A stretch of DNA of 64,000 nt from Sycon ciliatum. Lineage: Eukaryota; Porifera; Calcarea; Leucosolenida; Sycettidae. The position numbers were made by a program, and so were the translations under genes. Shown here piece by piece: positions 4,625-53,160 of the stretch (position 1 is its first letter; the number at the start of each line of letters is the position of its first letter). A model generated the notes under the pieces. That model was given only the letters and a program-made list of their open reading frames with translations. It was not told the origin of the DNA and made no database searches. The DNA is taken from contig NC_088654.1 in NCBI RefSeq assembly GCF_964019385.1, positions 5,043,597 to 5,107,596 of the forward strand, in the 5' to 3' direction.

Positions 4625-5765
4625 TTGACTGAACTGGACTTCCTTAAGTCCGTTTTTCTAAAGAACGGGTACCCTGACGATCTATTGAAGGAACTCATGA
4701 GCGAAAGGCTAGATAAAAAGGAAAAACGTTTTAGCCCGGACAAATGTCCCACGTATCTTTCTCTCCCCTGGAAAGGTAACCTCTCATTATTCATGAGTCG
4801 CTTAGTACGGAAACCCCACTTGCATCTAAATTGGTATACCAATTTGAGTGACGACAATGCGGTAGTCGGTACGTTTGTAGGACTCTTCAACATCTGAACG
4901 CACGTATCAAGTAGCACGTCGCACTGCATATGCTGACTGGCTCGGCATGGGCACTGCGACCAAAACGCGGCAGGCCACTGAAGAACCCTCGGCCACAGCC
5001 ATCGTTAGCACAATTTCCGTCATCGGCAATAGTGCCTCCATTACCCGAATCGAGAGCGTTTGAGTCGGGTAATGGGCATATTGTCACCACAACACAATGC
5101 ACCATAACAACACAAGATAACAACACACCACAACAACATTCAGCTCAAGACCAAAGTTGACGCTGTGATGAGGTAATGCCCTCATCGCCGTCTTTGCCGT
5201 TGCCTCCCCCACAACCGCCACCTACATCGGCGGTGCTGGGGCTGGGTCTGTGGTGTCGGTGGCACGTGAATATATGGATGAGGCAAGCACTGATTGTGAA
5301 CAACGAGAAAGAAGGCTGAAGGGAACGGAATTCAACAAAGAAAGTAAAACAATCAACATTCAAAGACCTAGACGATCAACGGCTAATTATTCAATGAATT
5401 ATTACAGTACTGGAGATCAAGCACCGGCGAGGACACTGGGAACACAAGATTTAACAACAACAACAACAATGGTAACAATTCGCCATCTAGATCAAAGGAG
5501 GAGTCAACGAACAGAGGTTAAACAACATGAAGCAAGCCTGGGACCGATCAGTGTTGATGAGGAGAATGACACGGAGGATGACACTGAGGAGGAGGTGGGA
5601 GATGAGACGGAGGACGAGGTTGTGGTTGTTGATTTTAGTTTTTCTGTTCTTTGTCGTGGACGGTATGCTAGTCAATTGAAAGTACTTGAGGCTGTTTGTA
5701 TTCGTTTGCATAAGCCTGATCTTTGTAAGCAGAAGAAACATGTAGTTGCGTTAAAATTGTTTTAG
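4625..5765 (+). pseudogene. Penelope-like element fragment: RT linker, AT-hook insert and GIY-YIG C-terminus
   Basis: The frame at 4625-4897 (FLKSVFLKNGYPDDLL ... CPTYLSLPWKG) matches the region between reverse transcriptase and endonuclease in Penelope-like elements (NGYP, then CPxYLxLPWxG). It stops before the GIY-YIG start. From about 4895 a second frame has RTYQVARRTAYADWLG, resembling the '(G)RT..RE....WLG' part of GIY-YIG. A third frame (from 4930) has an AT-hook-like KRGRPLKNPRP. The frame 5250-5765 ends with FSVLCRGR...LKVLEAVCIRLHKPDLCKQK...LKLF, the C-terminal block that holds the catalytic Glu of these endonucleases, preceded by an acidic stretch (DEENDTEDDTEEEVGDETEDE). The frames are disrupted, so this is dead. 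Confidence 0.6.
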
Positions 5766-8239: not shown

Positions 8240-10700
8240 CAAAAAACAACAACACTGTACTATAAGAACACCCAAAACTTCAAGAAGGAAAATAATGATT
8301 GGTGAAACTATTACCATAGTACACACTCCTGCAGTTAAACATTGAACTTCTCCTCCTCAAGTTTAAGACGTACAAGAGCAAAATATATTATAGTGGGTCC
8401 GAGCAGTAGACGAAACGGTAGGGAGGAACAAAACAACGAATACTTCAAAGTATGTGCAATTGGTTTCTACACATTAACAAAAAGTTGAGCAACACGATGA
8501 CGAAGTTATTATTTACACAAGCACAATACATGGAATTGTTGAGATTGTGAATAGATATGAAAAACTTGAAAGGGTCAACACGACTGTCTATTCAAGACTA
8601 CACAATACCCGCAATTTACTATGTACGAGCAATGTCTTCACGCAAGAAACTGAGATAAACAGCAAACGGATTTATAGCCTGATATGAAGACTGTATATGG
8701 AAATACCGCTGTAATGATAGCACCTGAGCACAAATTCCTATATCAATCGGTTCTTTTAAGAGCCCATTTAGTCTAGCATGGTGTGTGAACATTTCATCAA
8801 TGAAGCAGGCTATAGCTGCCTCGTGCTTTTCCTTGTACTTCACAAACGTCAATTGTGTGTGATCATCGACATCATTATAAAAGAAGTCTCGTGCACTGCT
8901 AGCTTGCTGAAAATGATTGATTGAGGAAGATTTGTAAATGATCTGGCTTCCTGGTTGTAACCATTTGCGTAAAAATGCGTGCATGCCAGAAAGGTCAACA
9001 GAACGGTCCAGCAGGGTCACAGCAAAGTTAGTGTTCATCTCTACCGCAATAATCATGCTAAATTCGGCATAGGGCTTGAAAACATCCAAATATACTAGAT
9101 TCAAAGGTCCAAACTTCAACTTCTTTTCAAGCACTTCGACGCTTTTGGAGATTATCCAATGATATGATCTAGCTTTCGACATAATCTGCACTTTGCAGGA
9201 GGTTGGTAGGTCAAACAATGTGAAGAAGCCTAGCACAATCTCCATGAGATTTCCTGGGGCACTGGAAAGATTTGATTTAGCTACGATCTGCCATGCAGAC
9301 CCGCAACGCTTGCAATCCCACAGATAGCCGCCTTTTGACGATTGATGAACATATATCCTGGCTGGTAATTCGCAGAGATTACATTGAATTTCATTACGAA
9401 TCACCTTCCTTCTCGCCAAGAAGCGTAGCAATGACTCGTTGTCCTGTATATGTGCCGAAATATCCTTCCAAGAGTACTCTTCCTCCTCGTCCTCCATTAT
9501 TGTTCTTGGTTGCACAATCTGGGTTCCCTCTAAACGTGCATAGGCTGCTCCACGAACAGAAGCCGAGTCTTCGAAACCGGAAATCATCTTGGCGTCCGAC
9601 AGTGTCACAATAAACGTTAACAGAGATCCAGTAAGTTGACCATAAAGGCGTTTAACCAGTTATTTTATATTGTTGAACTAGCAATGTCACCTGGAGCAGA
9701 GTAACATTAAGGCAGATAATACCGTTCGCGAACTTGATGGCATTTAACAACGGCTTCAAATCGGCGATGACAACCTTCCTGGATACTGTTGCTTCTACGA
9801 TTTCCACTATTTATTCTTGTCTGGACGTACCACGACTGATGGTGAAACAAAGGCGTGTTTACTCGTCCCATTAGCTCTTAGCCCGCCGGTGTTGTAAGTT
9901 TCACAGTAGAGCGCTATTTCCTCCGCCTCAGGTGAAAAGTCAGCTTCCAGTGACTGAAACCACTTGACAACGTCTCCCCGCGGAACTAATGCCAAGATTT
10001 CAAATATGATATATAGCGCTGGCATCAGCGAAATGTTTTCGATGAAACATTTATGCGGTGAAACTGTTATATTTGGAAGGATTCAAATGCAATAATTATA
10101 TTATCGATATCATCAGCGACATGTTTTCGCTGAAACTGCCATTAGGCAAAACTGCTATTCTGTGAATGGAAATTCTGTGAACATGCTCTTGAAGAACCTG
10201 TTTTCTTTGAACATGACTTTCGACGAAGTGTCCAGTCGCTAAATCTGACACTCTATGACATGTCTTTTAGTGGACCGTCGGTCTGTGAATGATCGTTCTT
10301 TGAACGCGTTTTCGGTGAACCGTCGGGATACCACTTGCGTAATTAATGAAAATCGACACATCGTTTTGAAGGCTACATTTCAATCTTTGCAATTTTGTAT
10401 CTTCCAAACTTTAATAGATTAGAGGTTCACGCGCACTTGCCATTTTCTATAATGTTTTATCCCCATTCCTACCGCACTGTGGTACTAGAAACTCTGTGTT
10501 GTGAAATATTCAATGAGAACCTTCGAGCATTGGTATAATTTGATAATAAGAAGAGTAGGAAGATTGAACACTGTTGAATCTCGTTGCCTGCTCCCAAAAT
10601 CTTCCCTACATATCACGCAGACCGCAAATCGTACTCATTTGGCGGGACTGTGTCGATAGTTATAATCTACGCAGTTGCTGGACGACTCGAAACACGGATG
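8240..10700 (-). repeat. Duplicated unit carrying ISXO2-derived gene, copy A
   Basis: The coding region and its flanks are homologous to 47030-49190 and 57540-59800. The 3' flank shares AGGAACAAAACAA...GGTTTCTACA and GAATAGATATGAAA. The 5' flank shares TTGTTGAACTAGCAATGTCACC and the more distant block CACGCGCACTTGCCATTTTC...TATCACGCAGACCGC...GTGTCGATAGTTAT (10430-10665). Homology that reaches well beyond the gene on both sides argues for segmental duplication rather than copying of an mRNA. 10020-10330 within it is a low-complexity run of GTGAA/TGAAAC phrases (e.g. CATGTTTTCGCTGAAAC), possibly a separate small insertion. Confidence 0.7.
8619..9587 (-). CDS. ISXO2/Merlin-transposase-derived protein, copy A
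   Basis: An intronless frame of about 322 residues from Met 9587 (an upstream in-frame Met at 9608 is not shared). Copies B and C start at the equivalent Met, which decides the start. Order: an acidic N-terminus (MEDEEEEYS), helix LLRFLARRKVI, a zinc ribbon (CNLC ... CKRC), then FFTLFDLPTS, which matches the ISXO2/IS1595 layout 'CxxC...WxCxxC...'. The DDE-like part follows: VYLDVFKP (first Asp), the family's LLDRS block, LQPGSQIIYKSSS where the active family has '(L)PGTIIxSD', and KHEAAIACF where it has 'HTxxVES.W'. The second catalytic Asp is therefore missing, although Glu may be kept. I infer a nuclear DNA-binding, non-transposing descendant. No terminal inverted repeats are evident. Confidence 0.65.
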   Translation of the reverse strand: MISGFEDSASVRGAAYARLEGTQIVQPRTIMEDEEEEYSWKDISAHIQDNESLLRFLARRKVIRNEIQCNLCELPARIYVHQSSKGGYLWDCKRCGSAWQIVAKSNLSSAPGNLMEIVLGFFTLFDLPTSCKVQIMSKARSYHWIISKSVEVLEKKLKFGPLNLVYLDVFKPYAEFSMIIAVEMNTNFAVTLLDRSVDLSGMHAFLRKWLQPGSQIIYKSSSINHFQQASSARDFFYNDVDDHTQLTFVKYKEKHEAAIACFIDEMFTHHARLNGLLKEPIDIGICAQVLSLQRYFHIQSSYQAINPFAVYLSFLREDIART

Positions 10701-11700: not shown

Positions 11701-11940
11701 GAAGTAGCGACTTCGTCGGTAATAGTCATGAAATTCATTGTTCCAACTGTTTCGAAACACCGTGTATTTAGCAGGGAGTGGTGCTTTCTTGCAGGTTTGC
11801 CAAGTGGAACGTGCGACGTGCTCCTTGTGTGCTCTGGATGGCAGTCGTAAGTCAGTAAAGTGTCAAGTTCGGCAAGAAGCGTGTGTTCCTAGTTGGAACA
11901 ATCAACTTCACGACTATTACCGCCGAAGTCGCAATTTCTA
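11701..11940. mobile_element. Foldback element enclosing the 3' half of a hammerhead-family unit
   Basis: The outer ends are inverted repeats of about 47 bp: AGCGACTTCGTCGGTAATAG...TTGTTCCAACT (11706-11750), and its reverse complement AGTTGGAACAA...CTATTACCGCCGAAGTCGC (11890-11936). The interior (11752-11870) is homologous to the right arm of the palindrome at 35287-35400: CGAAACAC.GTGTATT.AGCAGGGAGTGG, TTGCAGGTTTGCC, TGTGCTCTGGATGGCAGTCG. Homology begins at the GAAA of the hammerhead core, so the ribozyme's 5' half is absent. Confidence 0.6.
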
Positions 11941-11964
11941 GATTCATAAATAAATAAGTAAAAA

Positions 11965-14850
11965 CAATACAGGTACATTTTCCATGGATACTTGTACTGA
12001 CACCTCCCATGACATGCAACGTATTACTTCAGAAGTGAGGCGGTTCACACGAAGAGAAGGTGGGAAACGTTTGAGAATCTCTACGTCCTATTCCCAATCC
12101 ACGCTTTAACGGTTACTGATAGTCCTCTGACTTCTATTCACAGTGCACGCGTTAAGTTAATGCCTAGAATTAGTCCTTGCAGTTTTATTCCCAGTCTCTC
12201 GTTGTAATGGTTTCTGGTAATTGTAGAAAGTGTATCATGAGAACCACATCAGCTCAAAAAACATGCATTCTCGTGTGTGTAAGTCCTAACATTTGATTGC
12301 GATGTGATGAAAAACACACGTCTTGCGACATGACTAGACGGTTGTACTTCCCGGCGCTACTCAAGTAAGACTTAGCAACTAAAATAAACTTTCGTAGTTT
12401 CCAAGAGTGAGATAACCACCCACCCTAAAAAGAATCAGATTCTTGCAAAAACCTCGTTTTATAACACCCAAACAGCGTAACAGAAGGCTGAAGATATCTC
12501 ACAAGCCACAGGTGGCAAAAGCTTTGGATTGAGGTGCTTTTAAAGTGGTCTCGACTGAAGTACTCAGAAAGCACCAGCACTTCTCGCTGAAGTATTTTTA
12601 AATATGGCTTCGAATATGGCTTCGAAACCGTCCATTGTTGAGCTGGAAAACTTCGTGAAGGTGTACTCAAAACGCCAGTTTCCGATTTCAGGTCGTGAAG
12701 AAGAAGTCATAGTGCTGAGCACTAATTCGGATGGAACAAGGAAAACAGTGTGGGGGCCGGTATTCTTCCGCCCAACAGGATCCGTAGTTAGCACCATTCA
12801 CCCTGATAAGCCTCGGCGACGTAACTCTAGAGAAGCGTATTATCCTCGAATTCCTCTTTCGGCTATTGATAGCAAGGAGTGGGTGAAAGACGAGAGGCGG
12901 CAAAATCCTGTAATCCGAATCAAGATGACTGTAGGATCCTATCTTGGAAAGTCAGGACACTACTTGACTGTCATTTGGGTATTTTGTTTTGACACGTACT
13001 ATGATAACGCAGGTGTATGTCACTGGATTATTGACACTTTATACCTGGATTTCATCGGTCTGGAGAATTTGGTCCTGCCCCATGAAGATAGCATATGGTG
13101 CTTAACACAAGAGGAAGCAACGCGTTGGGTGGAAGTGATGATCGAATTGCCACCATCCAACCAATTTGAGGCGATCCCGGTCGGCTTAAACCTGCTCACA
13201 TATTCTTCTAAACCACTCATGTGGGGACCTCCACTGATCAAACCTGGTAAATTTGCTTTCAATCATTTTGAGGACTTCCAGCGCGTTATTGTAGAAGTAA
13301 CAAAGGGTACGAGCTACACTGTAACCAAACCAAAGCGCTGGAACGACGTCATTTTCAAAATAAGTCTATGTATCGAGAAGGTTGTGAATGATCAAAGCCA
13401 CATCTTCGGGAAATCCTTCGAAATGGACATATTATTCCTTCTGGAAGTGAAGGGAAATGTACGGAAGGTAATTTTATACAGGATGCTTTCGTAAAAAGTC
13501 AATAGTTCCATGCTGTACTTTGGCAATGAAGACTTGTTGAGAATTCTGAATATTTCGGAAATGCTGCAAGGATTCTTCATGTCTCCATGTTCAAATTCGT
13601 AAAATATTTGACGTTCTGAACTTCAGATAAAACAAAAGGATTGTTCGTATTAGCCCACTGCAATCTTGCACATCGTGTTCGAAAGTGATTTGATGTCAGA
13701 GACCTCGTCCGTTTTTTGTGTGAATTAAAAACTCGAACATTGCCGCGAATTACAATCTGGTAATGAAAATTCTGAGTCGGCCAAAGCTTATAATGGCTTC
13801 CTATGTAGAAGCTTAGTAGTTTTTTGACGTGTTATGTTTTGTATGTATTTCTTTTCTTTTCAACCCTGATCCATTCTTGTTGTTGTTGTTTTGATGTTTG
13901 TTGAATGTTTTGCTTTGAATTTCCGTGGAAGCATGCTGGCTGAGTTTAATCCATGTTTGAGTGGGATATAATTATTTAGATCGCCTTTAGGTGGTCTCTG
14001 TTTCATACTTTTCAGCGTGTGAGACTTCTTTCACTCGCTTTCTTTTCTTCTCCTTTATTGGGTTTTTCTTGAATACATACCATTATTCGCTGTTAATTTA
14101 TGCCTTCTTTCAAGTGTTGATGTTGGTACAATTTGGTTTTGGACCAAAAATCAATCACCCAATTAATATTGGTGGAATTCGAGTGTTACATTAGATCATG
14201 AACTAAAGGACCTGTATGACAAAAAAGAAAACGTGAGCACGATCAAGCTTATATTATATGAATTTACGCACAGACGATGCCACCCATATGGCTATCGTAA
14301 GGCAGCGGTTGCTGATACCAATCTCTGACCTTCACTCACCTCTGGTATGGACATATTCATGTTATAGAAAAATGTTAATGAACTAACACCCGGTAGGCAA
14401 GAGTTAAGCCGAGCACGTGTCCAAGTTTTGGATATTTGAAAAATCACGCTTTCCTCCAACAGATGTGAGTACCTGTGATCACGTGTCGATAGTGATAACT
14501 GAGGGTTCCACGATATAATGTTAAAGATAATAAAATGTGACATGTCTGATAATCCCATCTCTGAGTTACAGTAAAATATTTTTTAAATCTCATTTTATTG
14601 TTACTGTAACCAGAAAAGCGGGTTACTTGACAAAGTTAATATTGGGGAATTTTCATTAAATTGTCTGAGCACGTACCTGACTCACTACCATCTAGATCAC
14701 ATGAGGTACATCGGACAGCCATGTTCTCAATCAACCTGCAAAATATGCAATACATCCTGCCCAATACATACTACTGCATTGCATTACATGTATATGATGC
14801 AGGTAGTTCTCTACAGAATTGTCAGGACAGCATGTAAGCCTCGCACTGCA
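11965..14850 (+). repeat. Repeat Y, copy 1 (full length, carries an open reading frame)
   Basis: A ~2.85-kb unit nearly identical to 26030-28840. It starts near AACAATACAG...CATGGATACTTGTACTGACACC, includes the frame at 12604, an AT-rich 3' region (13500-14250), the block CTGATACCAATCTCTGACC...CATGTCTGATAATCCCATC (14310-14560), and ends at TGTAAGCCTCGCACTGC (14850). A second partial unit follows directly (14855 on), so Y sits as a tandem pair here. I see no terminal inverted repeats. Confidence 0.8.
12604..13494 (+). CDS. Repeat-borne protein of unknown function (296 residues), copy 1
   Basis: An intronless frame beginning MASNMASKPSIVELENF; the second Met (residue 5) could also serve. No signal peptide or long hydrophobic segment is present, so the product is probably cytosolic or nuclear. 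It has aromatic-rich blocks (GHYLTVIWVFCFDTYYDN, LNLLTYSSKPLMWGPPLI) and ends KSFEMDILFLLEVKGNVRK. I do not recognise the family, and catalytic motifs are not obvious. After NVRK the DNA reads AAG/GTAATT, a possible splice donor, and the two Y copies diverge in frame just after it. The annotated C-terminal residues may therefore be intronic. The near-identical copy at 26693 also stays open. Confidence 0.5.
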   Translation: MASNMASKPSIVELENFVKVYSKRQFPISGREEEVIVLSTNSDGTRKTVWGPVFFRPTGSVVSTIHPDKPRRRNSREAYYPRIPLSAIDSKEWVKDERRQNPVIRIKMTVGSYLGKSGHYLTVIWVFCFDTYYDNAGVCHWIIDTLYLDFIGLENLVLPHEDSIWCLTQEEATRWVEVMIELPPSNQFEAIPVGLNLLTYSSKPLMWGPPLIKPGKFAFNHFEDFQRVIVEVTKGTSYTVTKPKRWNDVIFKISLCIEKVVNDQSHIFGKSFEMDILFLLEVKGNVRKVILYRMLS

Positions 14851-15364
14851 AGTGGTCGAAATTTCGATACCTTCCGCAACTATAAACAATACAGCTACAT
14901 TTTTCCATGCATACTTGTACTGACACCTCCCATGACATGCAACGTATTACTTCGGAAATGAGGTGGTTCACACGGAGAGACGGTGGGAACCGTCTCTGAA
15001 TCTCTAAGTCCTATTGCCAGTCTACGCTTTCCTGGTTACTTTTAGAACTTGGACTTTTAATCACAGTCTAGGTGTTAAGGTAATGGCTAGTATTAGTCCT
15101 TGGATTTTTATTGCCAGTCTTCGTGTTAATGGTTGATAAATATGGTGGTAAAGACCCACCTGGCAATATGGCGGTAAACACACGCCTGCCCACACACGCT
15201 CTCTAGGCTGCGAAGTTCTGGCACAGAGCTCTCCTTCTCACGACCACCACCATCAGTTCGCGCCTGGCGCCTGGTCGATGCATGGCTGGCGGTATTCGGC
15301 ATACCAGGCTGGTACATCAAGTAGCGCATGGCACATAGATGATGACACAGCAACGACATAGGTC

Positions 15365-15408
15365 GATTGCGACGTACGTTTCGTCCCCGCTGGACTCATC
15401 AGGCAATC
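15365..15408 (-). ncRNA. Type-I hammerhead self-cleaving ribozyme (H2)
   Basis: Read on the minus strand from 15408: stem I GATTGC pairs perfectly with GCAATC (15370-15365). CTGATGA occupies 15402-15396. Stem II is GTCC/GGAC with an AGCGG loop. GAAA is at 15382-15379. Stem III is the minimal ACG-TA-CGT. The cleavage triplet is GTC, with the break after position 15371. Every conserved core nucleotide is present. The 4-bp stem II and 2-nt-loop stem III are typical of metazoan retrozyme hammerheads. Confidence 0.85.
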
Positions 15409-15817
15409 TTCTTCTTGGATGTCTTCATACGGAGCTTGACTCGGGAGAATGAAGTTGAAGACACCACTGCAGCTGTACCTATGGTTGATAAATATGGTGG
15501 TAAAGACACACCTGGCAGTATAGCGGTAAACACACGCCTGCCCACACACGCTCTCTAGGCTGCAAGGTTCTGGCACAGAGCTCTCCTTCTCACCACCACC
15601 ACCATCAGTTCGCGCCAGGCGCCTGGTCGATGGGGATCGCGACAGTAGGGCGTCTAACAGTAGGTCGAAGTACACCTGGGCGCCAGACTTGACGGCGTCT
15701 GTGACAATAGGTCGTTGCACCGTAAGGCGCGAGAACATTTTGCCGCGCAGACAGTAAGGCGTATGGACCACACGTCCCCGAGACAGAATGTCACCACTAC
15801 CACAGGGCGTCCATTGC

Positions 15818-16219
15818 CTATTGATTACCGGCAGCAAGCCGTTCGCGCTGGATAGATTTCTTAAGGGATGATGCCTTAGGTAACGAGGATAGGCAATCAG
15901 CAGACATATCATTCGTTGCAGCTCTCAGAACGGCAATCGTTGGCTCAATTGTCGTTGCGGCCCTTGTCCGTAGCTCCTCCTTGGCTTTCTCGACTGTGAC
16001 ACGCGTCGCATCCGGTGGGTGGCAGTGGGGAACGGTCTTGAACACGTCATCCCTGACAGTTTTACAGCGTCCCTTGCATTCGCCTCGCCGCTCACACCTC
16101 CAGTAAGTCGTGTCCTGTAGTTCGTCCTTGTCCTTGGTGTACGAAAACCCCTCATGGATGAGGAGTCTCTTCTTCTTCTTCGTAGTAGATAAGTGAATAC
16201 CATCGGTTTGAGCTGCCAT
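15818..16219 (-). CDS. FLYWCH zinc-finger protein fragment (133 residues)
   Basis: Residues ~12-70 form a FLYWCH domain: LLIHEGFSYTKDK, then TTYWRCERR, C(K)GRCKTV, and the closing HCHPPD. The pattern F-Y-YWRC-C-H.H chelates zinc and binds DNA or protein. The following VEKAKEELRTRA...SLPKASSLKKSIQR resembles the helical region after FLYWCH in MULE-type proteins, where a transposase would normally follow. Here the frame stops, so it is a truncated transposase N-terminus or a stand-alone adaptor. Confidence 0.65.
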   Translation of the reverse strand: MAAQTDGIHLSTTKKKKRLLIHEGFSYTKDKDELQDTTYWRCERRGECKGRCKTVRDDVFKTVPHCHPPDATRVTVEKAKEELRTRAATTIEPTIAVLRAATNDMSADCLSSLPKASSLKKSIQRERLAAGNQ

Positions 16220-16339
16220 AGTCAGATTCGGTTATCGGTTATGACTAGAAAATCAGAACATTGCTTGGGATAATTGGGGGGGGGGGAACGTACCTGTGTT
16301 TTATTCCGAGGTGATTTGTTAAGTTATTCGACATGGGTC

Positions 16340-16515
16340 GACATTATACAGTTTAGCGCCGATTCGTCTCTCCCCCGACGTGTCTCACCGCCGTGATGTC
16401 TCAGCGCCCTCGTGTCTCAGCGCCGTGATGTCTCAGCGCCCTCGTGTCTCAGCGGCGTCTGAGGGCGCCGAAACGTCTTAGCGCCCTAAAATCTCGCGCC
16501 CTTTCGTCGTAAACC
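16340..16515. repeat. GC-rich minisatellite (about 31-bp unit)
   Basis: CGTGATGTCTCAGCGCCCTCGTGTCTCAGCGC is repeated with small changes at about 16392-16470, followed by degenerate GTCTTAGCGCC/ATCTCGCGCC units up to the presumed right end of the MULE-like insertion. Subterminal arrays of this kind are usual in MULE ends. Confidence 0.6.
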
Positions 16516-17149
16516 CACCATGCATGGCTGGCGGTATTCGGCATAGCAGGCTGGTAGCCTGGTACATCAAGTCGGTCGCAATCGAGTTACAGTGTATGTC
16601 GTTGCTGTGTCATCATCTATGTGCCATGCGCTACTTGATGCACCAGCCTGCTATGCCGAATACCGCCAGCCATGCATCGACCAGGCTCCAGGCGCGAACT
16701 GATGGTGGTGGTGGTGAGAAGGAGAGCTCTGTGCCAGAACTTTGCAGCCTAGAGAGCGTGTGTGGGCAGGCGTGTGTTTACCGCCATATTGCCAGGTGGG
16801 TCTTTACCACCATATTTATCAACCATAAGTACAGCTGCAGTGGTGTCTTCAACTTCATTCTTTCGTGTTAATGGTTTCTCTTAAAGTGGCTCCTACCCCT
16901 CGGGTCCACCAGCCGGTTTCACTCGGGGGAGGGGCCAAACATGGTATACACACAATTGCCAATTTAGGCAAAAAAATACCGGAAACCACTTTTTGGGCCG
17001 TAGCACTGGTAGTTACCCCCTTTTTCTTGATGTCCAACATCAGGACAGTAGTATACTTGCTAAATATCAGCATCAGCTGTAGAAATGGGTAGAATTCTGG
17101 TAGAAGGTGACCCTTTTTCTCTTTTCGGAATCATCCCATTTCAGCGCAC

Positions 17150-17775
17150 ACGTCCTACAAGTATTTGACACTGGACTTGCCCTGTATTCGATGGTTATGC
17201 TATCATAACCTAATAATGGTACTGTGTAGCACGTTTGAGCAGGTTCTACCGAAGGTAACTTGTGAAATAAAACTTTGAAGTTTCAAGTGATGCCATATTT
17301 CAAGAATCAGCACATTGCACTGGGACATTGTCCAACGCCTTAGGACCCCTGACTTCACCATATGACAGATACGTGTCTTACAATAATTGATTGCAACATC
17401 TTCCGAACATAGTAGTAGGGCTTTGGATCAAGTTTTAGCAGTTTCCACCCAAGCTAACTACCAAAATAGAACTTTGAAGTCGCCCACATACTAAAGGCCA
17501 TAGCTGAACATGTGCATTGAGTGTATGGTCCAAAGGTTTTCACAACTAGCTCCAATGCGGCAGATACGTGTCTGACATTACTTGATTGCAACATCTTCAG
17601 AACATAGTATTAGAGCTTTGGATCAAGTTTAGACAGTTTCTACCGAAGCAAACTACCAAAATAGAACTTTGAAGTCGCCCACATACTAAATGCCATACAT
17701 GTAGCTGAGCATGTGCATTATATTGAGTGTACATGTATGCTCTATTGTTTTTCACAACTTTCTCCAACATGAAGC
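17150..17775 (+). repeat. Tandem repeat of about 205 bp, three copies plus a diverged one
   Basis: GGCAGATACGTGTCTGACA, TTGATTGCAACATCTTC and ACCAAAATAGAACTTTGAAG recur at about 17365-17490 and 17570-17680, with an older copy at 17170-17385 (GACAGATACGTGTCTTACA ends it). A further trace lies at 18110-18230. There is no coding potential. The rest of 17775-19250 shows nothing I can name. Confidence 0.6.
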
Positions 17776-26029: not shown

Positions 26030-28840
26030 CCGAACTTTAGATACCTTCAGCAACTATAAACAATACAGCTTCATTTTTCCATGGATATTTGTACTGACAC
26101 CTCCCATGACATGCAACGTATTACTTCAGAAGTGAGGTGGTTCACACGAAGAGAAGGTGGGAAACGTGGATTAATCTCTACGTCCTAATCCCAATCCACG
26201 CTTTACCGGTTACTGATAGTCCTCTGACTTCTATTCACAGTGCACGTGTTAAGTTAATGGCTAGGATTAGTCCTTGGATTTCTATTCTCAGTCTCTCGTG
26301 CTAATGGTTTCTGTTGTAGAACTTGTATCATGAGAACCACGTCAACTCAAAAAACATGCATTCTCGTGAGTGTAAGTCCTAACATCTGATTGCGATGTGA
26401 TGAAAAACACACGTGTTGCGACATGACTAGACAGCTGTATTTCCCGGCGCTGCTCAAGTAAGACTTAGCAACTAAAATAAACTTTCGTAGTTTCCAAGAG
26501 CGAGATAACCACCCAAAAAAGAATCAGATTCTTGCAAAAACCTCGTTTTATAACACCCAAACAGCGTAACAGAAGGCTGAAGATATCTCACAAGCCACAG
26601 GTGGCAAAAGTTTTGGATTGAGGTGCTTTTAAAGTGATCTCGACTGAAGTACTCAGAAAGCACCAGCACTTCTCGGTGAAGTATTTTTAAATATGGCTTC
26701 GAATATGGCTTCGAAACCGTCCATTGTTGAGCTGGAAAACTTCGTGAAGGTGTACTCCAAACGCCAGTTTCCGATTTCAGGTCGTGAAGAAGAAGTCATA
26801 GTGCTGAGCACTAATTCGGATGGAACAAGGAAAACAGTGTGGGGGCCGGTATTCTTCCGCCCAACAGGATCCGTAGTTAGCACCATTCACCCTGATAAGC
26901 CTCGGCGACGTAACTCTAGAGAAGCGTATTATCCTCGAATTCCTCTTTCGGCTATTGATAGCAAGGAGTGGGTGAAAGACGAGAGGCGGCAAAATCCTGT
27001 AATCCGAATCAAGATGACTCTAGGATCCTATCTTGGAAAGTCAGGACACTACCCGACTTGCATTTGTGTATTTTGTTTTGACACGTACTATGATAACGCA
27101 GGTGTATGTCACTGGATTATTGACACCTTATACTTGGATTTCATCGGTCTGGAGAATTTGGTCCTGCCCCGTGAAGATAGCATATGGTGCATAACACAAG
27201 AGGAAGCAACGCGTTGGGTGGAAGTGATGATCGAATTGCCACCATCCAACCAATTTGAGGCAATCCCGGTCGGCTTAAACCTGCTCACATATTCTTCTAA
27301 ACCACTCATGTGGGGACCTCCACTGATCAAACCTGGTAAATTTGCTTTCAATCATTTTGAGGACTTCCAGCGCGTTATTTTAGAAGTAACAAAGGGTACG
27401 AGCTACACTGTAACCAAACCAAAGCGCTGGAGCGACGTCATTTTCAAAATAAGTCTATGTATCGAGAAGGTTGTGAATGATCAAAGCCACATCTTCGGGA
27501 AATCCTTCGAAATGGACATATTATTCCTTCTGGAAGTGAAGGGAAATGTCCGGAAGGTAATTATGCGTGATGCTTTCGTAAAAAGTCAGTAGTTCCATGC
27601 TGTACTTTGGCAGTGAAGACTTGTTGAGAATTCTGAATATTTCGGAAATGCTGCAAGGATTCTTCATGTCTCCATGTTCAAATTCGTAAAATATTTGACG
27701 CTCTGAACTTCAGATAAAACAAAAAATTGTTCGTATTAGCCCACTGCAATCTTGCACATCGTGTTCGAAAGTGATTTGATGACACAGACCTCGTCCGTTT
27801 TTTGTGTGAATTAAAAACTCGAATATTGACGCGAATTCCAACCAGGTAATGAAAATTCTGAGTCGGCCAAAGCTTATAATGGCTTCCCATGTAGAAGCTA
27901 AGTAGTTTTTTTGACGTGTTACGTTTTGTATGTATTTCTTTTCTATTCAACTCTGATCCATTCTTGTTGTTGTTGTTTTGCTGTTTGTTGAATGTTTTGC
28001 TTTGATTTTCCGTGGAAGCATGCTGGCTGAGTTTCATCCATGTTTGAGTGGGATATATTAAGATCGCCTTTAGGTGGTCTCTGTTTCATACTTTTCAGCG
28101 TGTGAGACTTCTTTCACTCACGTTCTTTTCTTCTCATTTATTGGGTTTTTCTTGAATACATACCATTATTCGCTGTTGATTTATGCCTTCTTTCAAGTGT
28201 TGATGTTGGTGCAATATTTTGGTTTTGGACCAAAAAACCAATCGCCCAGTTAATATTGGTGGAATTCGAGTGTTACACTAGATCATGAACTACAGGACTT
28301 GTATGACAAAAAAGGAAACTTGAGCACGATCAAGCTTATATTATATGAATTTAAGCACAGACGGTGCCACCCATATGGCTATCGTAAGGCAGCGGTTGCT
28401 GATACCAATCTCTGACCTTTACTCTCCTCTGGTATGGACATATTCATGCTAGAGAAAAATGTAAATGAACTAACAGCCTGTAGGCAAGAGTTAAGCCGAG
28501 CACAACGTGTCCAAGTTTTGGAAATTTGAAAAAGCACGCTTTCCTCAAACAAATGTGAGTACCTGTGATCACGTGTCGATAGTGATAACTGAGTGTTCCA
28601 CGATATAATGTTAAAGATAATAAAATGTGACATGTCTGATAATCCCATCTCTGAGTTACAGTAAAATATTTTTTAAATCTCATTTTATTGTTACTGTAAC
28701 CAGAAATACGGGTTACTTGACAAAGTTAATATTGGCGAATTTTCATTAAATTGTCTGAGCACGTACCTGACTCACTACCATCTAGATCACATGAGGTACA
28801 TCGGACAGCCATGTTCTCAATCAACCTGCAAAATATGCAA
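26030..28840 (+). repeat. Repeat Y, copy 2 (full length)
   Basis: Collinear with 11965-14755 at very high identity, including the open frame, the 3' AT-rich region, and the CTGATACCAATCTCTGACC block at 28399. It is cut short within AAAATATGCAATA, where a LINE fragment joins. On its 5' side Y sequence continues across the hAT insertion to 25003. Confidence 0.8.
26693..27592 (+). CDS. Repeat-borne protein of unknown function (299 residues), copy 2
   Basis: Nearly identical to the frame at 12604, with a handful of substitutions clustered around GSYLGKSGHYPTCICVFCFD. After NVRKVI it ends MRDAFVKSQ instead of LYRMLS because of a small indel just past a potential splice donor (AAG/GTAATT). No domain is recognised. 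Neither copy has an internal stop, which indicates recent duplication or selection. Decayed 5' fragments ride on repeat D at 21220 and 32090. Confidence 0.5.
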   Translation: MASNMASKPSIVELENFVKVYSKRQFPISGREEEVIVLSTNSDGTRKTVWGPVFFRPTGSVVSTIHPDKPRRRNSREAYYPRIPLSAIDSKEWVKDERRQNPVIRIKMTLGSYLGKSGHYPTCICVFCFDTYYDNAGVCHWIIDTLYLDFIGLENLVLPREDSIWCITQEEATRWVEVMIELPPSNQFEAIPVGLNLLTYSSKPLMWGPPLIKPGKFAFNHFEDFQRVILEVTKGTSYTVTKPKRWSDVIFKISLCIEKVVNDQSHIFGKSFEMDILFLLEVKGNVRKVIMRDAFVKSQ

Positions 28841-28845
28841 TATGC

Positions 28846-29612: not shown

Positions 29613-30044
29613 GTGTATGGCCCGCATTTCAGCAATGAGCAAAATCGGTTGAATTTATTTAGTGCTCGTCAGAAGGACACCGTTGCATCATTTATCACTG
29701 ACTTTAATCGTCTCAGCCTGCAGGTACCTGAGTTAGACGAACACTCGCGCGCCCTGCTGTTTGTCAACGGACTCGGGGGCCATTTGAGGCGTGAAGTACT
29801 CAAGGAGCATCTGACAACACTGTCGAAGGCTATACAAGCAGCACTGACCGTAACGGCCGAGAATCGACACCAACCAGATGGCATAGCTGCAGGATCGCCA
29901 AATATCCGAAGACCAACCAGACTGTCGTCAGAAGACCGTAATCGCTTGATGAGTGCTGGCAGATGTTTCGCTTGCCGACAGCAGGGACATTTAGCCCAAG
30001 ATTGCCCGCGAGTTCACCACCACCCAAACGTTGGACGCCATTGA
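29613..30044 (+). pseudogene. Gypsy gag, N-terminally deleted, with zinc knuckle
   Basis: The frame begins inside the capsid-like retrotransposon-gag domain (FSARQKDTVASFITDFNRL...LLFVNGL), so the first half of gag is missing although the LTR and primer site are present; this implies an internal deletion near 29600. The C-terminus has one CCHC knuckle, CFACRQQGHLAQDC (CX2CX4HX4C), for RNA binding. The pol frame overlaps by ~80 nt in the -1 register. This could be programmed frameshifting, but a single-base indel is as likely because the pol frame continues the usual post-knuckle sequence. Confidence 0.7.
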
Positions 30045-31950
30045 CAGCGGTGCGATCACTGGCGCTGAGAAGAGCACCACCCTGTCCCACTGCCGCTCCA
30101 ATCGCCACGAAGAATCGCTTCAGTGACTTATTGGTTGACGAAGTCGATTGCGGAGAAGATGAGCCTGCCGCGGATGTAGCTGCTGCTACCGCTACTAGTT
30201 GTGTTGATTCCAAAAAACATGTTAAGAAGAGCCGCGAAGCGCACGTCGGAAGTGTCGTCGCTGAAAAAGAGAACGAGCTACTACGGGTGGAAGCCAAACT
30301 GTGCGGCCGTGCAGCGACAGTGTTGATCGACTGTGGATCAACCCACGACTTCATTTCTGAGGTGTTCGTCCGAAGACACAAGGTGCCAACAGAGTTGGGA
30401 TCGGAATTACTGAAAGTCACATTAGCGGATGGAAAAACGAGCTCACACGCTATGGAGACCACGAATGCCATAGATGTTGTTGTCAGCGACTCCAAGGAGA
30501 AACAGCAGTTTACCGTCTTTCCCCTCGCCCGCTACGACGCGATATAGGGCAAGCCCTGGTTGACTAGGAACAACCCACGAATCAATTTCCGGACCAACGA
30601 AATAATCGTGGACGGGAATGGTCTGCCAAGTGCACCTTCTCAGGACAAGGACGGAGACTCACAAATCGAAAACATGTTCATTTCTGGCTGTCAGGCTAGT
30701 CATGCGCTCAGAAACGGTGAACAAGGATTCCTAGCATGGGTCACAGCTGAGGACGACTCCGGTCTTGATCCACCTCTGAGTATCCCCAACTCTAACAAGC
30801 CCGAAGTTGCTGACTTGCTTCGTGAGTATTCCGATGTCTTTCCTGATGAACTGCCGGACGCACTTCCACCTGAAAGATCCGTAGATCATGAGATTCGGCT
30901 TGAAGAGGGTGCACCGCCGCCGTCACGACCAACCTATCGTCTCCCCAAGCCTGAAATGGACGAGTTGAAGTCGCAACTGGAGCAACTACTCGCAAAGGGT
31001 TTTGTTGAGCCAAGTAAGTCCCCGTATGGCGCACCCGTGTTCTTCGTAAAAAAGGCAGATGGCAGTTTGCGCATGGTATGCGACTGGAGGGATCTTAACA
31101 AAATTACTGTGAAGAATAAGGCTTGCCTGCCCAATGTGGATGAAATATTTGACACAGTCCAGGGGAACACGTATTTCACGAAGCTCGATTTAAGATCAGG
31201 GTACAATCAGATCCGTATTCAGAAGAACGATGTCGAGAAAACGGCCATCAATACACCGTTTGGGCACTATCAATTCCGGGTAATGGGTTTCGGCCTGACT
31301 AATGCACCGGCCACATTTCAGACTCTGATGAACAGCATCCTCCGCCCGTACTTACGAGATTTTGTAGTTGTGTTTCTGGATGACATTCTCATATTCAGCA
31401 GATCGTGGTCAGAGCATCTAAGCCATGTGCGGACGGTGCTGGACGTGCTCAGGAAGAACCAACTGCTCTGCAAGTTATCGAAGTGCGAATTCGGCGCTTC
31501 GGAAGTTCTGTTCTTGGGGCATTGCATCAACGGCTCTCATATTTCACCTGACCCGAAGAAGGTGAACGCTGTCCGGACGTGGCCCAGTCCATCGAGCATC
31601 ACTGAGGTGAGACAGTTCTTAGGCTTCACGAACTATTTTAGACGATTCATAGACCACTATTCGTCTATAGCTAAGCCCCTTGAAGAGATCACTGGAAAGC
31701 ACGCACGATTCGAATGGGACGATTCCAAGCAAGGGGCGTTTTTGGCCTTGAAGAATGCTTTACTGAATGCGCCAGTATTAAAACTTCCAGATGTAGACAA
31801 GCCATTCAGAGTGGTTACGGACGCAAGTGATTTTGCGGTAGCAGGCGTTCTCCTCCAAGAAGATGATAACGATGATTGGCACCCCGTAGCATACACTAGC
31901 CGCAAATTATCATCTGCAGAGAGAAACTACACAGCGGCAGAGAGAGAGAG
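29963..31950 (+). pseudogene. Gypsy pol: protease, reverse transcriptase, partial RNase H
   Basis: Order: an aspartic protease with LIDCGSTHDF (active-site D, here DCG where DSG/DTG is usual), then a TAG at 30545-30547 that cuts the frame just before GKPWL, then reverse transcriptase with YFTKLDLRSGY and the catalytic FLDD, then the start of RNase H (VVTDASDFAVAGVLLQ). The frame is broken at 31950, where repeat D begins inside the RNase H domain. The rest of RNase H, the integrase and the 3' LTR are gone. The single stop is the only lesion in the remaining protease-RT frame, which suggests fairly recent decay. Confidence 0.85.
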
Positions 31951-32089
31951 ACCCTGCGCGCGCAGAGGGTGTGAGCCATCTTAATTGTAGAACTTTTATC
32001 TTGAGAGCCGCGTCAACTCAAACAACAGACATTTTCTCGTGTGGTAGTCGTAACATCTGAGAGCGATGTCATGAAGTACCAGTCGCGAA

Positions 32090-33052: not shown

Positions 33053-33101
33053 TATGCTCCGCCGATGAGTCCATATAGGACGAAACAGTTCTGTCCGCAT
33101 A
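33053..33101 (+). ncRNA. Hammerhead ribozyme with a core substitution (H3)
   Basis: Stem I: TATGC pairs with GCATA and G33061 with C33096, with a three-base TCC bulge on the 5' strand. The core reads CCGATGA (33062-33068), so the conserved U4 is C. Stem II is GTCC/GGAC with an ATATA loop. GAAA is at 33082-33085. Stem III is ACAG-TT-CTGT. The cleavage triplet is GTC, ending at 33095. Apart from U4C all elements are in place. U4 is normally invariant, so this copy should be weak or inactive. The stem-I bulge facing the stem-II loop resembles natural type-I ribozymes. Confidence 0.7.
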
Positions 33102-33453: not shown

Positions 33454-33900
33454 TTCGGTCTTAATTCTCGACCAGGATCCTCTAGCCGAAGAAAAAGATC
33501 GACACCCCCACGCTAGACATGTGGACTAGAAATAATTATAACTCTGCTAAACAGGTCAAAAGTGGCTAGCAAAACCAGGCAAACCGACTGGAAGACTCAC
33601 TCGTAGCCAGGTGAGGTAGCAGACGAGCAGATAGGGATACTTGTAGTAACAACGCACGTAAATGGGATGAAGGATGGAAGGCCCCCACGAAAGCCATTGA
33701 TCAGGACAAAGGAAGTGTCAGACACTGGACAAGTGACCAGACTGTGTGCTGGACGTGAAGAGTCTCGACCTGCATAATGGGAGGTGACGACAAGTTGACT
33801 GCACAGTGGAAAGCACGAGTGTTCGAACACCACATCCATTTTGCTTCTGATCAAAGACAGATACTAGGTCTGAATAGAGCCAAGTGGTAGTGCAGTCCAT
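33454..33900. repeat. Distal part of repeat D shared with 56700-57100
   Basis: CGGTCTTAATTCT, ACTGGAAGACTCACTCGTA, GGGATGAAGGATGGAAG and AAGAGTCTCGACCTGC all recur in order at 56712-57040 with moderate divergence. It is followed near 33845 by GACAGATACTAGGTCTGAATA, which resembles the far 5' flank of the ISXO2-gene unit (59790-59810). It is non-coding. Confidence 0.65.
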
Positions 33901-33942
33901 CTGCCAGCTGTAGGGAAAGAAAATAATAATTTACAGCGGACG

Positions 33943-34329
33943 GTGCTCATAGATGTTCCAACCAGTCGGTTTTGGATGGAAATCTTGCAGAAATGTCTGA
34001 CGAAGAATGTAGTCTATTGTATGTCATGTACATTGTGCGAAGAGCTCTACGTCGGGGAAACCGAGCGTCCAGTGAGGGAAAGATTCAAGGAACATTATCG
34101 AGAGGCAAGGGTGAGGGCAGTGAAGACTCCCTGGGGGGGGGGGGGGGGGCATTACAAGTCTGACCACCGAGAATTTGCAACATCATCGCCTAACTTTCAG
34201 CCTTTCCACCACGCCAAGATTCTCGGCAGGGAGTCTTCGCTGCCTTCCCGCAAGTACATGGAAGCAACCGAAATCAGAAGCAGAAAGCCAGCAATCAACT
34301 GTGACACTGGATGGAGACTATCGGCATAA
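33943..34329 (+). pseudogene. Penelope-like element GIY-YIG endonuclease domain
   Basis: The ordered motifs of the Penelope GIY-YIG nuclease are visible: NVVYCMSCTLC, then LYVGET (the GIY/YIG pair appears as VVY...YVG), RPVRERFKEH with the conserved Arg, a HY...DH segment, RKYMEATEIR with the catalytic Glu, and the terminal KPAINCDTGW. It is the C-terminal ~128 residues only; the reverse transcriptase is missing. A 16-17 base G-run at 34133-34149 encodes an implausible Gly run and may be slippage or a sequencing artefact. In the animal this nuclease nicks target DNA for priming. Confidence 0.75.
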
Positions 34330-35064: not shown

Positions 35065-35100
35065 GAAGTAGTGGTTGCGACTTCGGCGATGATTTTTGTA

Positions 35101-35449
35101 AGAAAGGTTCGCTCCCCACACCGGAGCTCGCGCTATTCCGCCGACTTTACTTGACACTTGACTGACTCACGACTGCCATCCAGAGCACACGAGAAGTCCA
35201 TCGAACCTTCGACTCGGCAAACCTGGAAGAAAGCACCACTCCCTGCTCAATACACTCAAGCTCAACTGATGAGGGGTGAATTCCCCGAAACACTGTGTAT
35301 TGAGCAGGGAGTGGTGCTTTCTTGCAGGTTTGCCGAGTCGAAGGTTCGATGGACTTCTCGTGTGCTCTGGATGGCAGTCGTGAGTCAGTCAAGTGTCAAG
35401 TAAAGTCGGCGGAATAGCGCGAGCTCCGGTGTGGGGAGCGAACCTTTCT
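35101..35449. mobile_element. 349-bp near-perfect palindrome with an apical hammerhead, flanked by (ATT)n
   Basis: The left arm 35101-35255 and right arm 35295-35449 are 155-nt inverted copies (AGAAAGGTTCGCTCCCC ... CTGCTCAATACAC / GTGTATTGAGCAG ... GGGGAGCGAACCTTTCT) with very few mismatches. The 39-nt turn holds most of the ribozyme. (TTA)n runs at 35031-35063 on the left, and (CTT)n then (ATT)n at 35450-35482 on the right. Parts of the arms occur at 11752-11870 and 52910-53010. The symmetry gives almost identical 81-codon frames on both strands, which I consider non-coding. Confidence 0.8.
35260..35305 (+). ncRNA. Type-I hammerhead self-cleaving ribozyme (H4)
   Basis: Stem I: GCTCAA (35260-35265) pairs perfectly with TTGAGC (35300-35305). 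CTGATGA is at 35266-35272. Stem II is GGGG/CCCC with a TGAATT loop. GAAA is at 35287-35290. Stem III is ACAC-T-GTGT (effectively three pairs). The triplet is GTA, with the break after 35299. The complete conserved core is intact. A second GCTCAA lies upstream (35245-35250) in the long palindrome arm, so the same 3' strand can pair either into the ribozyme or into the long hairpin, giving two exclusive folds. Confidence 0.85.
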
Positions 35450-35479
35450 TCTTCTTCTTCTTCTTATTATTATTATTAT

Positions 35480-37412: not shown

Positions 37413-37905
37413 TCGTAGATATGTCAAAAGCATTTGATAAGGCGAAGCACCAAACCCATTCAAGACCTATTCGAGATCGGAATTGATGGAACGTTGGTGC
37501 AATGGCTTGCAGACTACCTCTCAGATCGGACACAGTATGTCAAAGTTGGTCAGGTAAAGAGCTCACCATACACCATCTTCTCCAGAGTACCACAGGGGTC
37601 AGTTCTCGGACCCTGTTGTTTGTTCTCTACGTCCGTGACATTGCGAAAGAGTTGTCCCCTCACCAAGTTGCGACCCTGCAATTTTCGGATGATATCTCAA
37701 TTAGATCCAGCAGCATGAGCATGGATGAGGTGTCCCAAAATCTCTCAAGTGCTCTCCCGCATCTCGCCGATTGGCTTAGGAGCCGCGGTCTCATCTTGAA
37801 TGAAAAGAAGACACAGAGAATACGGATATCGCCAGTACGGTCTCAAAAATTTGACTTGCAGGTGCAATGTAGCGCAAGGTTGACGGGCCCGTCTTCCCCC
37901 CAGAT
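37413..37905 (+). pseudogene. Non-LTR retrotransposon reverse-transcriptase core, frameshifted
   Basis: FVDMSKAFDKAKH starts the RT 'A' block; after a frameshift come DLFEIGIDGTLVQWLADYLSDR and VPQGSVLGP. In a second frame follow FSDDISI (the catalytic Y/FADD motif with Ser for Ala), LADWLRSRGLILNEKKTQ, and then decay. It probably belongs to the same element as 36040-36752, with the segment between them lost. Confidence 0.7.
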
Positions 37906-38125
37906 GAAACAGATGAAACAAGATGAAACGAGATGAAACGAGATGAAACAAGATGAAACGCCAAGTACGGGCGCAGATGAGGCCGAGATGAAACGAAATG
38001 AAACAAAATGAAACAAAATGAAACAACATGAAACAAGATGAAACCAAATGAAACTCGAAGTACGGGCCTAGATGGGCCGCGAATGAAACAAGATGAAACG
38101 AGATGAAACAATGTATGGGCGTAGA
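37905..38125 (+). repeat. GATGAAAC-type simple repeat
   Basis: Roughly 20 irregular repeats of (A)GATGAAAC(A/G)A fill 37910-38110, with islands such as AAGTACGGGC.CAGATG repeated two or three times. The antisense frames (Phe/His/Val/Ser repeats) are artefacts. Although GATGA and GAAAC occur, there are no paired stems, so these are not hammerheads. 38125-38975 holds no recognisable gene. Confidence 0.8.
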
Positions 38126-47389: not shown

Positions 47390-48370
47390 CTATGCATGAG
47401 TAATGCCTTCACGCAAGAAACTAAGATAACATGCAAATGGATTTATAGCCCGAACTACAGACTCCATAGAGAAATACCGCTGTAATGATAGCACCTGAGC
47501 GCACTTTCCAATACTCATCGTTTCCTTTAACAATCCATCTAGTCTGGTGTAGCTCGCTTGCATTTCATCAATGAAGCAGGAAATCGCTGCCTCGTGTTTA
47601 TCCTTGTACTGTACTGACGTCACTTGCGTATGATCATCACCATCTATAAACGAGTATTCATGTGAACTGAGAGACTGCGGAGAAAGAACGACTGAGGAAG
47701 ATTTGTAAAGGATCTGGCTTCCTGGTCTTAAGCAATTGTGTAAAAATATCGGCACGTGAGAAAGGTTAACGGACCTGTCCGTCATTGTCGCTGCCAAGTT
47801 AGTGTTCATCTCTACGGCTATAAATATCGTACATTCGGCATGTGGCTTGAAAACATCAAAATACACTGGATGGTCAGGTCCAAACTGCATATTTCTTTCA
47901 AGACCTTGGGCGCTTTTGGAGAGTATCCACTTATAAGATTTGTATTTCGGTGAAATCTCCACTTTTGACGAGGTTGGCAGGTCAAATAATGTAAAGAAAC
48001 CCAGGACAATATCCATGAGATTTCCTGGGGCACTGGAAAGACTTGATTTAGCTACGGTAGGCCATGTAGACTTGCAACCATTGCAATGCCACCGGTACCC
48101 GCAGTTTGACCGGGGATAAGCAGATATCCTGGCTGGTCTTATGCATTGGTTACATTGTATTTCATTACGAATCACCTTCCTTCTCGCTAAGAAGCGTAGC
48201 AATGACTGGTTGTCCCGTGTATGCTCCAAAATGTCCTTCCGAGAGTACACCTCTGCCTCGTTGTCCATTATAGAACTTGGTTCCACAATCTGGGTTCCTT
48301 CTAGACTTGCATTTGCGGCTTCTCCTCCAGCCGCAATAGTAGAAGCCGAGTCACCGACATTGGAATCCAT
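47390..48370 (-). CDS. ISXO2/Merlin-transposase-derived protein, copy B
   Basis: Start chosen at Met 48370, which aligns with the starts of copies A and C; an upstream in-frame Met at 48406 would add 12 unshared residues. The order is as in copy A: LLRFLARRKVIRNEIQCNQC, a second CxxC (HCNGC) after a Trp, FFTLFDLPTS, VYFDVFKP (first Asp), the TDRS block, LRPGSQILYKSSS in place of the SD-containing second catalytic block, KDKHEAAISCF, and the C-terminal NPFACYLSFLRE. About 326 residues, no introns and no stops. It differs from A at many positions while keeping the same motif spacing. Confidence 0.65.
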   Translation of the reverse strand: MDSNVGDSASTIAAGGEAANASLEGTQIVEPSSIMDNEAEVYSRKDILEHTRDNQSLLRFLARRKVIRNEIQCNQCIRPARISAYPRSNCGYRWHCNGCKSTWPTVAKSSLSSAPGNLMDIVLGFFTLFDLPTSSKVEISPKYKSYKWILSKSAQGLERNMQFGPDHPVYFDVFKPHAECTIFIAVEMNTNLAATMTDRSVNLSHVPIFLHNCLRPGSQILYKSSSVVLSPQSLSSHEYSFIDGDDHTQVTSVQYKDKHEAAISCFIDEMQASYTRLDGLLKETMSIGKCAQVLSLQRYFSMESVVRAINPFACYLSFLREGITHA

Positions 48371-48556
48371 CTTGGCAGACGACGGCGTCACACTAAACGG
48401 TATCAAAGATGCAGTAAATCGGCGACAGAGACTTTGGACCAGTTATTGTGTCGCAGGCAGTTTATACAGGTCCCCTAGTGATGACATAATTATACAGTGT
48501 GATGATTTTGTCACTTACTCTTACCGTATTGTTGAACTTGCAATGTCACCTAGAGC

Positions 48557-52760: not shown

Positions 52761-52904
52761 ACAAGATTAGTTATCCTGGATTACGGGGAGTGAAGAACAC
52801 GGTGAGTCTAGGAATCTCTCCTTTGATCGTCAACATTGGTCATGTAGGGGAAGAGTGTGTTGCTCCCTACATCGGAGTTTGCGGTTTTCCTGCCGACTTT
52901 TAAT

Positions 52905-53160
52905 TCTCACTTGACTGACTCACGACTGCCATCCAGAGCACACGAGAAGTCCATTCAACCGTTCACTCGGCATACCTGCACGAAAGCACCACTCCCTGGT
53001 CCGTTTCCAGCACACCAAACACCTTGTGAACACCAGATTGCAGCGTGAGTCAGTGTCGCTCATGGAGGTGCTGACCAAGCGCTGAGGACCGTTGGCCGTT
53101 CACAACATTGTTGCCTCCAAACCATCTAATTCTCAAGCCCTCGCTGGGGACAACAATGTG
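52905..53160 (+). repeat. Arm fragment of the 35-kb ribozyme palindrome family
   Basis: CTTGACTGACTCACGACTGCCATCCAGAGCACACGAGAAGTCCAT and GAAAGCACCACTCCCTG match the left arm (35157-35244). Instead of the ribozyme apex the sequence then continues into CAGCGTGAGTCAGTGTCGCTCATG, shared with 11570 on. Confidence 0.65.

Follow-up and report, generated by a model that had tools for sequence, protein, structure and literature searches.

A window of 64,000 nt from the genome of the calcareous sponge Sycon ciliatum (the whole stretch analysed; assembly GCF_964019385.1, contig NC_088654.1, positions 5,043,597 to 5,107,596, forward strand) contains at positions 15120–16874 a repeat element carrying a hammerhead ribozyme. 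The element consists of direct and inverted copies of a 352-nt unit, an 887-bp insert with a FLYWCH zinc-finger open reading frame (ORF), and a 13-bp target-site duplication (TSD) at its ends. The original prediction, made from this DNA alone, described it as a retrozyme-like element with units in head-to-tail and head-to-head order. The present analysis indicates, with a probability of roughly three in four, a single insertion from a family of non-autonomous retroelements that carry a hammerhead and integrate by target-primed reverse transcription of the Penelope type.

Structure of the element and its target site

The layout was established by repeat finding, alignment to the circularly read unit and exact breakpoints. 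The minus strand is the ribozyme sense, unit positions are counted from the base that follows the expected cleavage site (position 1, at 15370 minus), and 15129–15480 serves as the reference unit, with a GC content of 53.4%. Repeat finding revealed direct repeats at 15129–15280 and 15481–15632 with 95% identity and a start-to-start spacing of 352 bp, the period that had been predicted, as well as inverted arms with complementarity of 98% over 232 nt and 94% over 197 nt.

Read along the minus strand, the element begins with the right copy of the TSD (16862–16874), followed by an inverted unit (16575–16861, plus strand) running from position 276 to position 1 and 3 nt past the cleavage site. This unit comprises GTC and positions 1–276, with about 8 extra nucleotides and a 34-nt tail on its outer end; the GTC (16575–16577) precedes its position 1, just beyond a 2-nt head-to-head junction (16573–16574). 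The junction is followed by a direct copy of positions 49–93 with a few extra bases (16520–16572, minus), the insert (15633–16519), a direct copy of positions 91–352 (15371–15632, minus), the contiguous positions 1–242 of the next unit (15129–15370, minus) and the left copy of the TSD (15120–15132). The 504-nt direct stretch formed by the last two copies matches the circularly read unit at 98.6%, the reference unit itself being taken from 15129–15480. Tandem and inverted copies are thus present as predicted, but 887 bp of other DNA, missed in the original prediction, splits one of the units. The outer ends, originally noted to lie at different phases of the unit, are at positions 242 and 276, 34 nt apart, with the longer end on the inverted arm.

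The predicted type I hammerhead is recognised by the Rfam covariance model RF00163 at 15408–15365 on the minus strand, scoring 35.4 bits, above the gathering score of 34 (E 3.7e-5 over the whole window). In the cmscan alignment, which ends at helix I, helix III is loop-less and palindromic (ACGUACGU), helix I is a plain 6-bp helix, and the canonical loop 1–loop 2 contact is not seen. Cleavage is expected after GTC, between 15371 and 15370. No further hammerhead was detected in 14600–17400 at E up to 1 with lax filters. The bare core pattern CTGANGA...GAAA is by itself no evidence, because it occurs at 13 places in the window; when all three helices are required, two places remain, with none in 50 shuffles, and the second of them (35266, plus) lacks Rfam support. 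A 61-nt stretch with the ribozyme, folded alone, was no more stable than shuffles and did not adopt a hammerhead fold. The core contains an AUG 29 nt ahead of the cleavage site, and the frame starting there ends at 15253, around unit position 118.

The TSD, TTCGTGTTAATGG, was found only at 15120 and 16862 when both strands of the window were searched. When the flanks are joined as if the element were absent, they match two host-repeat copies, ending at 26315 and 12215, across the joint, so that the uninserted site is visible in these paralogues. The claim that host repeat lies on both sides holds for the left flank; on the right, the match extends only 8 bases past the duplication (to position 821 of the joined query). 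The left duplication shares its last four bases with the end of the unit, and because of this microhomology the 3' end of the unit can be read as 238–242. The host repeat itself is 2.8 kb long (11956–14752 and 26052–28842, 95% identical) and has ORFs of 296 and 299 amino acids, the first without a match in Pfam; the left target flank (14846–15134) is a third copy of its start, 84–86% identical.

The unit pieces flanking the 887-bp insert end at 93 and start at 91, with CAT on both sides as three repeated bases, which indicates that one unit was split by the insert. Its 133-amino-acid ORF (15818–16219, minus) encodes a FLYWCH zinc finger (PF04500, E 1.4e-11) and has two homologous protein clusters, 95% and 93% identical; in the related protein P0001 the reading frame continues beyond the stop of the window copy. 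This type of finger is common in DNA transposons of the MULE type. The insert ends show a weak inverted similarity, equalled in 119 of 5000 random pairs from the window and in 148 of 5000 shuffles of the letters, so the ends alone give weak support for DNA-transposon identity. Taken together, the insert is probably a nested piece of a DNA transposon that entered the unit later. An array of 16/32-bp repeats lies within it (16355–16458).

Alternatively, the FLYWCH segment could be cargo captured between two units during reverse transcription, as with the nonribosomal peptide synthetase (NRPS) gene of Adineta vaga located between Penelope pseudo-long terminal repeats (pLTRs). Both cases share a foreign coding segment between direct units, here with an open frame, an inverted unit and a TSD. 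However, the segment in the window splits one unit at a single point, which a nested insertion fits better: independent template jumps would land so close (7 of 352) with a chance of about 2%. The inverted similarity of the ends, weak as it is, was also counted against capture, which we regard as quite unlikely. No paper with both FLYWCH and a hammerhead ribozyme was found in the open-access literature.

A multi-copy family with two preferred ends

The translated frames of the unit were compared with 5.8 billion proteins at E up to 0.01. The sense frame matched 113 protein clusters, one with 86 and one with 56 members, and the antisense frame matched 28, of which 26 were new; all cluster entries originate from ENA. 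The 139 different proteins were each mapped onto the unit. On the evidence of these translated matches, the 352-nt unit belongs to a multi-copy family, a point that the original prediction missed. Comparable searches elsewhere gave no matches to the hammerhead pattern or a unit 26-mer in viral contigs, and neither a relative of P0001 nor a unit 23-mer in prokaryote genomes; both collections may omit the genome of the window.

The point at which the protein leaves the unit could be scored in 96 of the 139 proteins, where the last block is in sense orientation and at least four residues follow; the other 43 have no such end. These exit points are concentrated in two zones, 224–245 (61 proteins, median 239) and 266–284 (24 proteins, median 275.5), which together account for 85/96, and 11 lie elsewhere. 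The two ends of the window element, 242 and 276, correspond to these two common family ends, a feature of the family not recognised originally. Among the proteins with at least 12 residues beyond the unit, the flanks are distinct in 76/77. Orientation changes within a protein were observed in 15 of 139; all 15 are antisense-to-sense (head-to-head), and none is sense-to-antisense. A sense block passes the cleavage site unbroken in 29/139 proteins, and P0003 carries two ribozyme motifs 117 codons apart, which makes it a second tandem locus. The ribozyme core reads CLMSPAGTKRTS in 14 of the 19 matched motifs; P0060 and P0096 have an altered core, with WW where the window core would give two stops in the same frame.

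Inverted and tandem repeats are difficult to assemble, and a rearranged satellite or an assembly artefact was therefore considered. Strong arguments against this explanation, which is very improbable, are the 13-bp duplication with its empty paralogues and the fact that many proteins with different flanks share the end zones and the head-to-head order.

The inverted arm of the window element ends 3 nt beyond the cleavage site, and run-off at that site could be proposed as the cause of the head-to-head junction. The start of the inverted unit almost at the cleavage site, correctly noted for this copy, is not a trait of the family: only 1 of the 30 inner ends lies within 6 nt of the site, with 1.1 expected, and 2 of 30 within 10 nt. 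Run-off was rejected on this ground. The inverted pairs are near-symmetric in 3 of 15 cases, with inner ends at most 20 nt apart.

An apparent difference in how often direct and inverted arms carry the tail (61:24 against 4:25, Fisher p 5e-8; 61:24 against 2:7, p 0.005, in the sense search only) was also dropped, because an antisense frame can equally represent an ordinary copy read from the other strand. An ATG at position 242 of the antisense frame means, moreover, that tail-less copies are probably under-called.

Of three stretches folded, the one ending at position 242 forms two hairpins and is better than 198 of 200 shuffles (z -2.67); this model makes it a candidate entry structure for reverse transcriptase (RT). 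The others, including the 44-nt hammerhead core, are no better than shuffles (z -0.37 for the core and 0.16). A sub-threshold Rfam match to mir-31 (16517–16679, 34.6 against a cut-off of 51) reflects the inverted repeat of the units and was not taken as a microRNA.

Retrozyme or Penelope-type insertion

According to PMC7229834, metazoan non-LTR (long terminal repeat) retrozymes have tandem units of 150–450 bp, a type I hammerhead and TSDs longer than 4 bp, occur in many copies, and are characterised by a GC content below 50%, a canonical hammerhead motif and a highly self-paired monomer. In such an element, monomers cut by the ribozyme would be circularised by a host ligase and the circle copied by non-LTR machinery, which need not be Penelope-like, the inverted copy being incidental. 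The window element resembles the retrozymes of coral, mussel and axolotl in unit size, type I hammerhead, tandem order (also in P0003), TSD, copy number and the absence of an encoded enzyme, and blocks that cross the cleavage site are what a circular or multimeric template predicts. Unlike them, it has a GC content of 53.4% and a loop-less helix III, and its linear monomer folds like shuffled sequence (z 0.29, with 57/100 shuffles equally stable; the circular form is outside this calculation). Nor would canonical retrozyme mobility alone lead one to expect two preferred 3' ends or head-to-head copies, both of which are absent from the excerpts of the published retrozyme account. The head-to-head unit had been singled out as foreign to that account, but such copies are known in Penelope-like elements (PMC3846280). 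The element is therefore mobile, tandem and hammerhead-bearing, as "retrozyme-like" implies, while its GC content, loop-less helix III and poor self-pairing speak against filing it as a canonical non-LTR retrozyme, which we consider unlikely. Plant LTR retrozymes also have hammerheads in repeats of about 350 bp, but these are type III, with 4-bp TSDs, a primer-binding site and a polypurine tract (PMC7761336, PMC7229834), in contrast to the type I hammerhead and 13-bp TSD found here. Hammerheads are also carried by the schistosome W-elements (PMC8490949).

Closer parallels are offered by Penelope-like elements. The anole Penelope protein cuts and extends both target strands; cDNA synthesis starts at two internal sites, whose spacing corresponds to a tail of 30–40 bp, the ribozyme is dispensable for insertion in vitro, and the start codon is located 26 nt ahead of the cleavage site (PMC11167929). 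In Adineta, a typical Penelope copy comprises direct pLTRs, an adjoining inverted pLTR, a 9-bp TSD and a 31-bp tail; head-to-head is the most frequent order, for which the authors favour self-priming on an antisense template (PMC3846280). The window element shares with Penelope/Poseidon the minimal type I hammerhead without a helix III loop, the partial tandem of pLTR type with a head-to-head inverted copy (the orientation in 15/15 changes within the family), an optional tail on one end (34 nt, against 30–40 published), a short TSD with empty sites, and an AUG within the ribozyme core. It differs in the absence of an RT/GIY-YIG ORF between the repeats and in that the whole repeating unit is only 352 nt long.

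Another possibility is that the repeats are pLTRs derived from an autonomous Penelope-like element in this genome rather than members of a separate non-autonomous family. The end structure is identical to that of pLTRs, and the AUG 29 nt before the cleavage site is close to the anole value of 26. However, units adjoin without an intervening ORF both in the direct arm of the window and in P0003, the frame from the core AUG soon stops at 15253, and no RT-joined copy was seen among the short proteins searched. We consider this origin improbable, about as much so as a canonical retrozyme.

A Penelope-type enzyme acting on a non-autonomous family is most likely, because published Penelope traits include two 3' ends separated by 30–40 nt, a head-to-head copy and a short TSD. 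The element would thus work like a non-autonomous Penelope-type element of retrozyme size, being neither a canonical non-LTR retrozyme nor an autonomous Penelope. That this retrozyme-sized family bears the full Penelope footprint, with a pair of internal start sites spaced by about 35 nt, priming on both strands that yields head-to-head arms, and a TSD, is somewhat better than an even bet. In the proposed mechanism, the ribozyme would process a multimeric transcript, and a Penelope-like endonuclease/RT would cut both target strands with a 13-bp stagger. Each target 3' end would then prime cDNA on element RNA at internal start site 242 or 276. The template, multimeric or circular, would be longer than one unit, since the direct arm continues past the cleavage site into another unit. 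The two cDNAs would grow towards each other and be joined, giving a direct arm, an inverted arm and differing outer ends; later the 887-bp segment, probably a DNA-transposon piece with a FLYWCH exon, would have entered the direct arm. With two-strand priming and cDNA joining, a single rule would account for the two outer ends, the head-to-head arrangement and the scatter of the inner ends.

Several points weigh against this reading. The element yielded no ORF for an RT or endonuclease: of the eight ORFs of at least 50 amino acids in 15000–17000, the two longest were run against Pfam, giving FLYWCH for one and no match for the other. Searches on short predicted proteins found no autonomous partner carrying the 352-nt unit. 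The TSD of 13 bp exceeds the 8, 9 and 10 bp of the Adineta copies, and there are published Penelope copies with no TSD at all (PMC3846280). The three near-symmetric junctions of 15 are as expected from fold-back self-priming, not from two-strand priming. The family is known from predicted proteins, which represent open-frame copies only, with their DNA and TSDs unseen; its end positions carry an error of about 3–9 nt (a few codons), the two end zones were drawn after the ends were seen, and the 15 inverted blocks include short ones, such as that of 8 residues in P0024. Finally, the one GIY-YIG-like frame in the window (33874–34323, plus; PF01541, E 1.5e-4) narrowly misses the Pfam cut-off with 22.5 bits against 22.6, and its single-sequence fold, with a mean predicted local distance difference test score of 34.8, is too poor for use.

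Outside 14600–17400, the window contains one sub-threshold hammerhead match (33060–33097, plus; 25 bits, E 0.11). The GIY-YIG-like frame begins about 780 bp downstream of it, and the two may together represent the relic of a Penelope-like element that had a ribozyme of its own. In P0034, the part that follows the unit resembles four fragments of the window, at 62522–62719 (plus), 61653–61546 (minus), 60521–60348 (minus) and 5685–5762 (plus), with tblastn E values from 2e-13 to 1e-5; these fragments are putative Penelope endonuclease ends. Pfam detected no endonuclease domain in P0034, 5250–5765, 62165–62746 or 61613–62320, and a search of P0034 against PDB gave four weak, unrelated matches. 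Together, the GIY-YIG-like frame and the four fragments suggest from their sequence that Penelope-like elements are present in this genome.

The second place with full hammerhead geometry (35260–35305, plus) comprises a 6-bp helix I, CTGATGAG, a 4-bp helix II, GAAA and a short helix III, with cleavage expected after GTA; it has no Rfam hammerhead match even at E 10. It is embedded in a 350-bp palindromic repeat (35100–35450, 91% self-inverted), and its helix I carries little weight because the palindrome supplies it for free. Partial copies of this repeat occur at 11753–11868 and 52862–53001. Other mobile or repeated sequences of the window include a gag-like ORF with a zinc knuckle and the RT/RNase H of an LTR-type retrotransposon (29613–31984, plus), two RT fragments (RVT_1; 51387–52487, minus, and 37502–37936, plus), which are presumably LINE-like, and a three-copy family of ORFs of 327–338 amino acids (8619–9608, 47390–48406 and 57969–58952, all minus) without a Pfam match at E 0.01.

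Implications for hammerhead repeats of animals

Animal retrozyme repeats have been described as containing no conserved motif from which an autonomous mobilising element could be deduced (PMC7761336). Penelope-like elements have been named a strong candidate for this role (PMC7229834), and one proposal sees retrozymes as Penelope elements in reduced form (PMC11722881). No report of a Penelope tail or of head-to-head order in retrozyme-sized repeats was found in the passages, titles and abstract openings that the literature search covered. Penelope-spaced 3' ends in a hammerhead family would provide physical evidence for the link between retrozymes and Penelope, and a simple test follows, namely to map where hammerhead repeats end in the genome of any animal. 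The present family also separates two roles: its ends look as if they were set by internal RT starts, while the inner junctions bear no trace of the cleavage site. If true, the reading of a full Penelope footprint would name the machinery that mobilises animal hammerhead repeats and would mean that the ribozyme is not what sets the ends of the cDNA.
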